Source: Calditrichota bacterium
GTDB lineage: Bacteria > Electryoneota > AABM5-125-24 > Hatepunaeales > Hatepunaeaceae
Length of the DNA stretch: 36,296 nt
Assembly (NCBI GenBank): GCA_016867855.1
Contig: VGIO01000007.1
Span: 1 to 36,296 of the forward strand
Reading direction: 5' to 3'
Shown here: piece by piece, positions 14,455-28,542 of the stretch
Layout of the letters: every line of letters begins with the position of its first letter
How positions within the stretch are numbered: position 1 is the stretch's first letter
The notes under the pieces: model-generated
The model's input: the letters and a program-made list of their open reading frames with translations, nothing else
Databases searched by the model: none
What the model was told of the DNA's origin: nothing
Translations under genes and position numbers: made by a program

Positions 14455-15540
14455 TCACAGTTTCACATAAAGTTGTTTCAAGCCTTCGGTGCAGTTGCGG
14501 CACATCGGGATGCCGTTCCGCCCGCCGGAGTTGACGATGCGCCGGAACTCGCGCAAGGGACCGCCGGCGATATCGCGCCAGGATTGGGCGCCACCCTTTA
14601 CCGTCGACTCGCCGAAGTCGACGGCTCTGTTTGCCGCAGAGTGTCCCCACTCTGCGGTTTCATCGCTGCAGGATGGGGACATTCTGCAGCAATTTTCGGC
14701 GGGCAGAGACGCCCGCCCTACCGCTGCCGACTGTGGCGAGTCGGCAGCGGGCAATCCCAATATATTCCCCAAACCAAACTTCTTCGTCCAAAAGCAGCAG
14801 GGGAAGACCTCGCCGTTATAGGCAATTACGGCCGAATAAGCCAGCCGCCGGCAATAGTCGCGTGTGCGACGCATTTGCAAGCGCCCATCGACGAGGTCGT
14901 AGCGCCACAGGCGCCGGTCGTCCGGCAGGTCGTTCGGCGCTGAATTCACATCTTCCAAACTCGATACCCGGTAGGTCTTGAACTTCACCTTGTCCGCACC
15001 GCACGCATTAGCCAACCGCTTGACCGCCTGCAGTTGGTCGATGGTTTGCCGGCGGATGAGGCATTCGACGATGATTTTCGGAAGATGCACACCAGCCCGT
15101 TTGCGCTCTACCCGCAGTATCGCAATCCCTTCCAATATATCCGCCAGTTTCCCGCCTACGCGATACTGCTGGTAAGTGGCTTCGTCGGCGCCATCGATTG
15201 CCAGTGTGATGCGTTTCAGGCCGGCTTGAACTAATCGGCGCGCCAAATCGCCTTTGCAGAGGAGCGTGCCGTTGGAGTAGGTCTGCGTCCAGAGTCGGCG
15301 GCGGGTGGCGGACGTCGCCATCTCCGGGAACTCCGGCGCGCAGAGCGGCTCGCCGCGGTGCCACAGATTCAAGAACCGCACCGTGCGGGGTATCCGCTCA
15401 AGGACGCGCTCAAAATCTGCCAGCCGCATAATCCCTTCGCCGCGTCCGACCGCCGTCGGGCAGCCGGGGCAGGACAGGTTGCAGACGGCGGATGGTTCGA
15501 TGTGAAGCAGAAAATAGATTTTAGTTAAATAAAGGACAAT
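14455..15540 (-). CDS. Radical SAM protein with SPASM-like C terminus, carrying an in-frame hairpin-repeat insertion and no standard start codon
   Basis: The first in-frame ATG (15429) lies downstream of the radical SAM cluster motif CNLSCPGC (CX3CX2C), encoded at about 15460-15483, so the gene must start earlier. The frame is open back to the UnbV stop codon at 15604-15606 but contains no ATG, GTG or TTG; ATT at 15540 or CTG at 15510 are possible starts, and I give 15540. The core follows radical SAM order: RFLNLWHRGEPLC, SNGTLL, KRITLAIDGADEATYQQYR, KVKFKTYRV. The C terminus has Cys groups (CRRLAYSAV, FPCCFWTKK, MCRNCTEG) typical of SPASM-type auxiliary clusters. Between LGNI and GGAQSWRDIAGG about 53 residues are encoded by five short palindromes (14598-14755). 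The product is probably a maturase or tailoring enzyme; substrate unknown. Confidence 0.82.
   Translation of the reverse strand: MVLYLTKIYFLLHIEPSAVCNLSCPGCPTAVGRGEGIMRLADFERVLERIPRTVRFLNLWHRGEPLCAPEFPEMATSATRRRLWTQTYSNGTLLCKGDLARRLVQAGLKRITLAIDGADEATYQQYRVGGKLADILEGIAILRVERKRAGVHLPKIIVECLIRRQTIDQLQAVKRLANACGADKVKFKTYRVSSLEDVNSAPNDLPDDRRLWRYDLVDGRLQMRRTRDYCRRLAYSAVIAYNGEVFPCCFWTKKFGLGNILGLPAADSPQSAAVGRASLPAENCCRMSPSCSDETAEWGHSAANRAVDFGESTVKGGAQSWRDIAGGPLREFRRIVNSGGRNGIPMCRNCTEGLKQLYVKL
14598..14755 (-). repeat. Five consecutive short palindromes inserted in frame in the radical SAM gene
   Basis: Five hairpins in a row: 14601-14624 (arms CCGTCGACT/AGTCGACGG, loop CGCCGA), 14634-14657 (CCGCAGAGT/ACTCTGCGG, loop GTCCCC), 14665-14690 (GCTGCAGGAT/ATTCTGCAGC, one mismatch, loop GGGGAC), 14698-14717 (GGCGGGC/GCCCGCC, loop AGAGAC) and 14723-14748 (GCTGCCGACT/AGTCGGCAGC, loop GTGGCG). 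Every loop is 6 nt. On the coding strand the block has no stop codon and is read as a Ser/Ala-rich linker containing AADSPQSAAVGRASLPAE and EWGHSA. Confidence 0.9.
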
Positions 15541-15590
15541 ATGGACATAATGGACATAGTTGACAAAATGGACATAGTAGATGCAATGGT
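15541..15590. repeat. Tandem repeat at the 5' end of the radical SAM gene (ATGGACATA-like units)
   Basis: Imperfect direct copies of ATGGACATA, spaced by GTTGACAAA and GTAGATGCA, lie between the UnbV stop and the radical SAM motif. On the coding strand they supply three ATG codons, all in the wrong frame for the radical SAM gene; that frame ends at a TAA after about 17 codons. Expansion of this repeat may have replaced or shifted the original start codon. Confidence 0.65.
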
Positions 15591-15603
15591 CAAAGATTAT
15601 TTT

Positions 15604-17907: not shown

Positions 17908-17968
17908 GTTAGAAAGTTAGAAAGTAAAAAAGTTAGTATTGTCATTAGCATCAGCATCAGCATCATTT
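17908..17968. repeat. Simple tandem repeats between the glycosyltransferase and UnbV genes
   Basis: Two low-complexity runs in the 70-base gap: GTTAGAAA-type octamers (17908-17938) followed by AGCATC hexamers running into the end of the glycosyltransferase gene (17945-17968). A related stretch, in inverse orientation, lies at about 24707-24730 next to the membrane-protein gene. Confidence 0.65.
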
Positions 17969-19243
17969 CTTTAATATCCGCCCTTTCCAGTGGACTTTGC
18001 CGACGAGCGCAAATGGAACCAGCATTGTGAATAGAATAGGACTGATTAATTCAGCGGCGAGCCAGGAAACGAACCATCGTGGCTCGGTTAGTATTGCTGC
18101 GCCGCGCTTAATCGTCCAACCGTCGATGAGGATTTTGACAGCCCAGAGCAGGCTTAAGTTAAGCCATCCTAAATATCCGATGAGGCTTAAAATAAAGCAG
18201 ATTGTGAGTCCGAGGTTGAAACTATAGAGCAGCGTGGAAACCACTATCATTTCAGAGCTGTAGCGTCGGCCGGCGGAGAGGTGGCGACGCTTCATCCGCC
18301 ACCAGGCGGTCAGCGACGACGGAGCGGCTGCCGGGACAAAGGTCGCCGGGTCGGTCGAAAATAGGATTTTCCCTGTGTATATGGCCAGCCGCTGTAAAAG
18401 CAGGTCGTCGTCCCCCGACGCTCCAGCGCCGCTCGCACCGAAACCCTGAACCGTGAGGAAACTCTTGCGACGGTAAGCGAAATTGCGCCCGGCGGCGGTG
18501 GTCGGAACGCCCAAACCTATCGTCCCGGCGGCTATTATTCCATTTACGAATGCATCGAAATGAGCCGTGGTTGATGTGAGATTTGCAAACATTCGAGCCA
18601 AAAATGACCTCTGCTCTAAGTCCTTATCATCCTGCACCCCGCATTCCGCATTCTGCATTCTACATTCTACATTCTGCATAATCGGAGAATAGCCTACGAC
18701 GGCTGCGACTTCAGGCTCAAATTGTCGGGCGATGCGCCTCACCCAGCCGTGCGGAGGGACGCAATCAGCATCGGTAGCGAGGATGATTTCACTTTGGCTG
18801 AATGCAATGCCGGTGAGAAGGGCGCGTTTTTTCGGCGCGAGATATAAGTCTGCCGTCAACCTTCCCTGGTTGACAGCGCCTTCTGGTTCGGCAGTTATAC
18901 CTCTGCGGTTGACAGCGATATCGGCGGCTGCGCCGGATTTAAGCAGCCGGATGTTTGGATGCTGGGCTGAAAAAGAAAGAACAATCTCCGTTGTGCGGTC
19001 GGTCGAATCGTCGTCGATGACGATAATTTCCAATAATTCCAGTGGATAATTCTGTTTGCTAAGCGCATCCAGGCAGCGCCCAATGTCCTTCTCTTCGTTG
19101 CGCGCAGCGACCAGGACGCTGACAGATGGGCTGGATGCGCCCTCTGCTGGTTTCAATCGCTGCAGACCGACCGCCAGACCGATGACGAATAAACACCAGA
19201 CGACGCCGAAGGATGCGGTCAGGATAAATACTAATTCCGGCAA
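17963..19243 (-). CDS. Membrane-bound family 2 glycosyltransferase with two repeat-derived insertions
   Basis: 426 residues. An N-terminal membrane segment (3-26) precedes a GT2 domain: VSVLVAARNEEKDIGRCLDAL (41-61), IDDDST (76-81), the DXD-type ATDADCVPP (156-164), GDDDLLLQR, and an acceptor-site MKRRHLSAGRRY that stands for the usual QxxRW-like motif. Three to four membrane helices follow (SFNLGLTICFILSLIGYLGW, LLWAVKILIDGW, LAAELISPILFTMLVPFALV). It probably transfers sugar to a lipid or polysaccharide at the cytoplasmic membrane. The TTG start at 19243 directly follows the TAA of the upstream gene, which indicates coupling. Residues about 105-134 (AVNRRGITAEP, AVNQGRLTAD) come from hairpin repeats, and residues 189-206 (MQNVECRMQNAECGVQ) from a heptamer repeat. 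Both keep the frame. Confidence 0.9.
   Translation of the reverse strand: MPELVFILTASFGVVWCLFVIGLAVGLQRLKPAEGASSPSVSVLVAARNEEKDIGRCLDALSKQNYPLELLEIIVIDDDSTDRTTEIVLSFSAQHPNIRLLKSGAAADIAVNRRGITAEPEGAVNQGRLTADLYLAPKKRALLTGIAFSQSEIILATDADCVPPHGWVRRIARQFEPEVAAVVGYSPIMQNVECRMQNAECGVQDDKDLEQRSFLARMFANLTSTTAHFDAFVNGIIAAGTIGLGVPTTAAGRNFAYRRKSFLTVQGFGASGAGASGDDDLLLQRLAIYTGKILFSTDPATFVPAAAPSSLTAWWRMKRRHLSAGRRYSSEMIVVSTLLYSFNLGLTICFILSLIGYLGWLNLSLLWAVKILIDGWTIKRGAAILTEPRWFVSWLAAELISPILFTMLVPFALVGKVHWKGRILKK
18636..18680 (-). repeat. Heptamer tandem repeat inside the glycosyltransferase gene
   Basis: Five to six copies of a 7-base unit (GCATTCC, GCATTCT, ACATTCT on the plus strand) are read in frame on the minus strand as MQNVECRMQNAECGVQ. 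The tract lies just after the GYSPI segment that follows the DXD-type motif. Coordinates are good to a few bases. Confidence 0.8.
18852..18916 (-). repeat. Two to three hairpin modules inside the glycosyltransferase gene
   Basis: The module at 18852-18877 has arms GCCGTCAACC/GGTTGACAGC (one mismatch) and the 6-nt loop TTCCCT. A second, decayed module at about 18891-18916 keeps GCGGTTGACAGC. Both match the intergenic module at 2571-2596. The block is read in frame as AVNRRGITAEP and AVNQGRLTAD. Confidence 0.8.
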
Positions 19244-28224: not shown

Positions 28225-28542
28225 TACTAAATTGCATTCAAATGAATAACAAAGGGATTTAAAATTCACAACGGATTAAACGGATAGAACGGATTACATA
28301 GCGGCTTTGCAGGATTATCCGTTTCATCCGTTTAATCTGTTGTTAATTTGTTTTGACATTTAGGCTAATTGCAAAAGTGATGATTAATCTAGAAAACTCA
28401 GACCATGGCAAGGCGGACGCCCTCGTCCGCCGAAAACCAAGCCTAGAATGCGGCGGACGAGGGCGTCCGCCTTGCCATCAGTTAATAAATCCAACACTTT
28501 TGCAATTACCTCATTTATCGTCTGATTGATTGCGACTAGGTA
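28225..28542. repeat. MITE-like element B, copy 2, split by element A
   Basis: The two parts (28225-28362 and 28518-28542) together make about 163 bp and match the uninterrupted copy at 20756-20919 in reverse complement. Ends are TACTAAATTGCATTC and, inverted, TACCTAGTCGCAATC. Element A plus a 6-bp duplication is inserted near the right end. Confidence 0.8.
28363..28511. repeat. MITE-like element A, copy 2, with CATTTA target duplication
   Basis: 149 bp. Terminal inverted repeats are GGCTAATTGCAAAAGTG and AGGTAATTGCAAAAGTG. A perfect 25-bp inverted repeat (28407-28431 against 28452-28476) surrounds a 20-nt spacer. CATTTA occurs directly on both sides (28357-28362 and 28512-28517), while the empty copy of element B has a single TATTTA there. 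No coding capacity. Confidence 0.88.

Follow-up and report, generated by a model that had tools for sequence, protein, structure and literature searches.

How did five successive hairpins come to lie within the coding sequence of a radical SAM gene, and has the gene remained intact around them? We addressed this for a 36,296 nt stretch of DNA (referred to as “the window”), which corresponds to contig C7 in a metagenome-assembled genome (MAG) of 3.10 Mb and 294 contigs. The features discussed are located in Table 1.

Table 1. Coordinates of the palindromic element, its modules and the genes that carry insertions in the window
Feature	Position	Strand	Evidence or description
Radical SAM/SPASM gene with insert	14455-15504	-	Pfam profiles, homologue alignment, start context
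Mosaic palindromic element F-G-G′-B-F, in frame	14598-14755		Absent in aligned homologues; order repeated at C42, C44, C5 and partly C155
Module 1, family F palindrome	14601-14624		9-bp arms, 6-nt loop
Module 2, family G palindrome	14634-14657		10-bp arms, 4-nt loop
Module 3, family G′ palindrome, inverted partner of module 2	14665-14690		10-bp arms with one G.T
Module 4, family B, putative GTAG-type REP	14698-14717	-	7-bp arms, 6-nt loop
GTAG tetranucleotide, foot of module 4	14718-14721	-	Exact match to GTAGGGCGGGCGTCTCTGCCCGCC at 14698-14721, minus strand
Module 5, family F palindrome	14721-14750		12-bp arms, 6-nt loop
Glycosyltransferase gene (17963-19243) with two F modules (18854-18875 and ~18890-18916)	18854-18916	-	In-frame insertion, same window

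An insertion in a radical SAM gene

The product of the host gene matches the Pfam profiles Radical_SAM (44.9 bits) and SPASM (30.3 bits), and is probably a radical SAM/SPASM protein. As the first-pass annotation had described, five hairpins follow one another between conserved segments of this protein, with no stop codon in the frame of the gene. Alignment to homologues from sister genera and other phyla revealed matches that end at about residue 251 and restart at about residue 309, with residues 252-308 missing from the homologues. By the alignment, the gene has gained a net 56 residues (168 nt) over its relatives; the initial estimate was about 53. The insert is missing from every aligned homologue, including those of sister genera, the closest relatives compared, a distance at which neither an exact empty site nor a target duplication is defined. 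Conservation past the insert is about equal to that before it (e.g., 62% vs. 55% in the genome G008), indicating that the reading frame runs on past the insert. In a structure model, insert residues 258-301 have pLDDT values <50 and the rest of the enzyme is mostly well predicted; the insert is thus predicted to be disordered. Based on the sequence, tryptic peptides encoded by the insert include MSPSCSDETAEWGHSAANR and AVDFGESTVK.

The start of the gene is non-canonical. We placed it at a CTG (15504), where aligned relatives have their ATG, since starting at the first ATG (15429) would exclude the CxxxCxxC motif, and no ATG, GTG or TTG occurs in frame upstream of this motif. The gene could therefore be read as a decaying pseudogene: loss of the ATG and the insertion would be signs of inactivation, and the frame would be open by accident. 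However, all the cysteine motifs are intact, neither a frameshift nor a stop codon was detected, conservation of the C-terminal region matches that of the N-terminal region, and comparable inserts occur in genes expected to be essential (see below). We consider decay of the gene unlikely, and it would in any case be compatible with the origin of the insert proposed below. Use of CTG in place of a canonical start could conceivably have weakened the function of the protein. A ATGGACAT-type repeat is located directly upstream of the CTG (window 15504-15600).

Modules are copies of dispersed palindrome families

By sequence, the modules represent copies from three palindrome families dispersed in the genome: F (modules 1 and 5), G/G′ (modules 2 and 3) and B (module 4). 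Modules 4 and 5 especially have close copies elsewhere in the genome. It had been suggested at first that all loops are 6 nt, that the arms are unrelated and that structure rather than sequence is shared. Instead, module 2 best fits a 10-bp stem closed by a 4-nt loop, modules 1 and 5 share a family, modules 2 and 3 form an inverted doublet able to fold into a single long hairpin, and each module falls in a sequence family whose stems vary in a compensated way.

Hairpins with a 6-nt loop and arms of at least 10 bp were found 45 times in 1.76 Mb of the genome, compared with 2.3 expected from shuffled sequences. Family counts cover about 2.15 Mb of the 3.10 Mb (about 2.34 Mb for F copies in genes). 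By the calls of a home-made gene caller, about 90% of 524 matches to eight palindrome families are intergenic, against 83% coding DNA.

Family B had 138 matches in 2.15 Mb, 116 of them intergenic, with 29 inverted pairs. We estimate the family at about 100 copies that are GTAG/GGAG-tagged and frequently paired in inverted orientation. The foot reads CTCCT in 73 of 108 copies and CTACC in 10, which correspond to GGAG and GTAG on the opposite strand. Module 4 is a short palindrome with a stem in the 5-13 bp range of REPs and a GTAG-like end tetranucleotide, and its family has the high copy number, mostly extragenic location and inverted dimers of REPs. Module 4 thus appears to be a REP on all features open to testing. 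Within the phylum, its pattern was detected in just two genomes, this one and one more.

The GTAG/GGAG foot was not found in the listed copies of F and G (modules 1, 2, 3 and 5), so we did not file these families as GTAG REPs. We also considered family F as a CGTC REP, defined by a CGTC (or TGTC/CCTC) tail, an 8-9 bp stem starting with AT, a loop of 4-5 nt and a CCA tail, and rejected this given its 6-nt loop and symmetric GCTGTCAACC/GGTTGACAGC arms. Stem pairs 1, 4 and 6 of family F are Watson-Crick in 95-99% of 91 copies vs. about 50% expected from column composition, a difference somewhat inflated by the choice of copies by pairing. In family B, whose copies were also chosen by pairing, compensated variation is seen at pair 4 and more weakly at pair 6. 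Such stems could arise if palindromes are corrected in the course of replication, and likewise if an enzyme recognizes the hairpin. Family F is present in 10 of 39 genomes of the phylum, spanning several families, with zero control matches. Only one of 70 F copies is in a divergent intergenic region, though 15% of intergenic bases are in such regions.

The array recurs in the genome and includes a RAYT-associated REP

When used as a query, the block had 65 matches in its own genome. Composite copies are located on C42 (87% identity), C44 (80%) and C5 (80%), with a partial copy on C155 (range 78-87%). The order F-G-G′-B-(F) is repeated at these loci, in part at C155, from which we infer that the array most likely spread as a pre-formed mosaic that moved as a unit.

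Chance formation of the hairpins is already refuted, as is an assembly artefact, which a MAG of 294 contigs might have led one to suspect. The 158 bases of the block hold four disjoint perfect hairpins with arms of at least 7 bp, and three or more occurred in none of 3,000 dinucleotide shuffles. Moreover, copies of the block are on many contigs, and the recurrence of family F across the phylum, without control matches, does not fit with either cause.

A gene for a RAYT (REP-associated tyrosine transposase) was identified on C242 (NCBIfam NF047646, 81.8 bits; cut-off 80). Eight family B palindromes surround this gene, on both sides, the published arrangement of REPs and RAYTs (PMC3733652, PMC2817692). 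Their arms are of the GGACAGGC subtype, not the exact arms of module 4. RAYT genes of sister genera have no flanking family B repeats beyond isolated matches, so it is on the C242 locus that the link between REP and RAYT depends. All nine genomes of the family encode Y1-type transposases. Families F and G could not be linked to any transposase, and nothing ties either to the C242 RAYT.

Taken together, we consider it very probable that a mobile palindrome array of composite, BIME-like makeup was copied whole into the SPASM region of the radical SAM gene, where it forms the block and is tolerated. Module 4 belongs to the GTAG REPs, which are proposed to be mobilized in single-stranded form by RAYTs, one of which the genome encodes. 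The F and G modules come from two further palindrome families, presumably also mobile. The array, probably inserted in one event, may have survived because its length is a multiple of three, it has no stops in that frame, and it lies in a loop that would tolerate a disordered insert; the peptide itself probably has no useful role. The first-pass annotation proposed a mobile or self-propagating family under selection for an open frame. The dispersed, mobile-looking palindromes agree with the first part of this proposal but not with the second, as four of the six frames of the block are free of stops and the copy on C42 is blocked in all six. The open frame is explained if only those few insertions that preserve it survive, and selection for coding ability is thus unnecessary.

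In-frame insertions in other genes

The home-made gene calls place about 14 of the 91 F copies within genes, together with about a dozen of family B. The insertions in the glycosyltransferase, CTP synthase, arginyl-tRNA synthetase and HypF were confirmed against known structures or relatives. In-gene matches to loose B and F patterns at, for example, C26, C39, C76, C11, C77 and C83 were dropped by eye as chance.

In the glycosyltransferase encoded in the window, the two F modules account for 25 amino acids, and an additional 29-residue insert (MQNVECRMQNAECG...) is missing in sister genera. The CTP synthase (L046:662-2452) has an insert of about 47 extra residues from three family B modules. 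The arginyl-tRNA synthetase (ArgS; L243:7514-9394) has F modules and a separate second repeat-derived insert. One ArgS insert holds an apparent CGTC-type palindrome (CGTCATTCCCGCGCAGGCGGGAATCCAG), and we judged a ubiquitin match inside ArgS to be a coincidence in translated repeat DNA. An in-frame palindrome insertion was also confirmed in HypF. In RarA (L174:367-1605), an F module occupies a loop that has apparent other palindromes in two sister genera; the different palindromes point to a tolerant insertion site. The repeat-derived peptides of this loop (PPLAGGARGG type) differ by genus between L174 and the homologues L225 and L226. Palindromic repeats are thus in frame in many unrelated genes, as is the case for Rickettsia palindromic elements (RPEs).

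The codon register of in-gene F modules is near constant in a first set (13 of 14, with either strand coding) and weaker in a second (4 of 6 distinct new cases). The 15 F loci retrieved from the genome G006 are all intergenic. We regard the register preference as an unexplained trend. It is conceivable, if doubtful, that family F is a new phylum-wide mobile element outside Rickettsia, tolerated in coding sequence and served by its own mover, which has repeatedly extended housekeeping enzymes by short in-frame peptides with a preference for one codon register. Its traits would then include the constant 6-nt loop, the strongly compensated stems, the lack of a GTAG/CGTC tag and the avoidance of divergent promoter regions.

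The insertions also bear on whether the palindromes were retained for a function, with the peptide or a stable mRNA hairpin array regulating or diversifying the host protein, as proposed for the Rickettsia elements. Inserts in many genes, CTP synthase and ArgS included, and the prevailing codon register of F would be in line with this, as would the strong RNA fold of the block (z = -7.75). On the other hand, the radical SAM insert is missing in all the relatives aligned and is predicted to be disordered, the block is open in most frames anyway and other copies are blocked, and the RarA loop, with different palindromes per sister genus, fits tolerance better than conserved function. We therefore find retention for function quite improbable, and favor tolerated insertion of a mobile array. 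An Rfam scan of the window had no match, indicating no known RNA family. A role of the hairpins at the RNA level, as initially raised, is possible, and no evidence requires one.

Relationship to known palindromic elements

The first-pass annotation considered tandem strings of diverse hairpins with a constant loop length to be unusual, which holds in part. Intragenic REPs and RPEs are a precedent for palindromes in genes, and both GTAG and CGTC REPs are described within genes of several bacteria, some of them in clusters that encode 43-82 residues (PMC3733652). What is new here is the lineage, the three-family mosaic in one coding insert, and the broad non-GTAG family F across the phylum.

The closest counterparts of family B are the GTAG REP/RAYT “REPtrons” (Di Nocera et al., 2013, PMC3733652; Nunvar et al., 2010, PMC2817692), with which it shares a palindrome with a GTAG/GGAG foot, high copy number, inverted pairs, a mostly intergenic location, a flanked RAYT and some copies in genes. 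In contrast to REPtrons, the REP here is one module in a mosaic with F and G, both without the GTAG foot, and MAGs are the only source here for the host lineage. The intragenic REP clusters of O. terrae, Thauera and R. conorii (PMC3733652) are likewise REP arrays in ORFs, with clusters of 43-82 amino acids and hosts that include tRNA synthetases and repair genes. The present insert differs in sequence, in combining three families and in being collinear with copies elsewhere. BIMEs are similarly composite palindrome arrays with alternating orientation, but are REP arrays that are typically extragenic (PMC2817692), whereas REP and non-REP families are combined here within a gene.

RPEs also lie in frame in many protein genes and are apparently tolerated. 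However, they belong to Rickettsia, and the present array is a mosaic of small hairpins with a RAYT-linked REP; the likeness claimed is in the way of working. In that sense the array works like the in-gene palindromes of Rickettsia and REP-rich bacteria. Rickettsia and a few REP-rich bacteria are the best-known cases of in-frame palindrome insertion, which is new to this deep uncultured lineage; here, a single genome unites a RAYT, its REP and a heavy decoration of genes, housekeeping genes among them. Such insertions amount to many natural and independent tests of which protein loops accept added residues and of whether the elements ever turn into useful protein sequence.

Two further repeats were noted in the window. 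A GTAG REP of the module 4 family, GTAGGGCGGGCGTCCCTGCCCGCC, is located at 1073-1096. Positions 28412-28471 hold an inverted pair of another palindrome family (GGCGGACG...CGTCCGCC), which ranks among the genome's two most abundant families and is nearly absent from genes.
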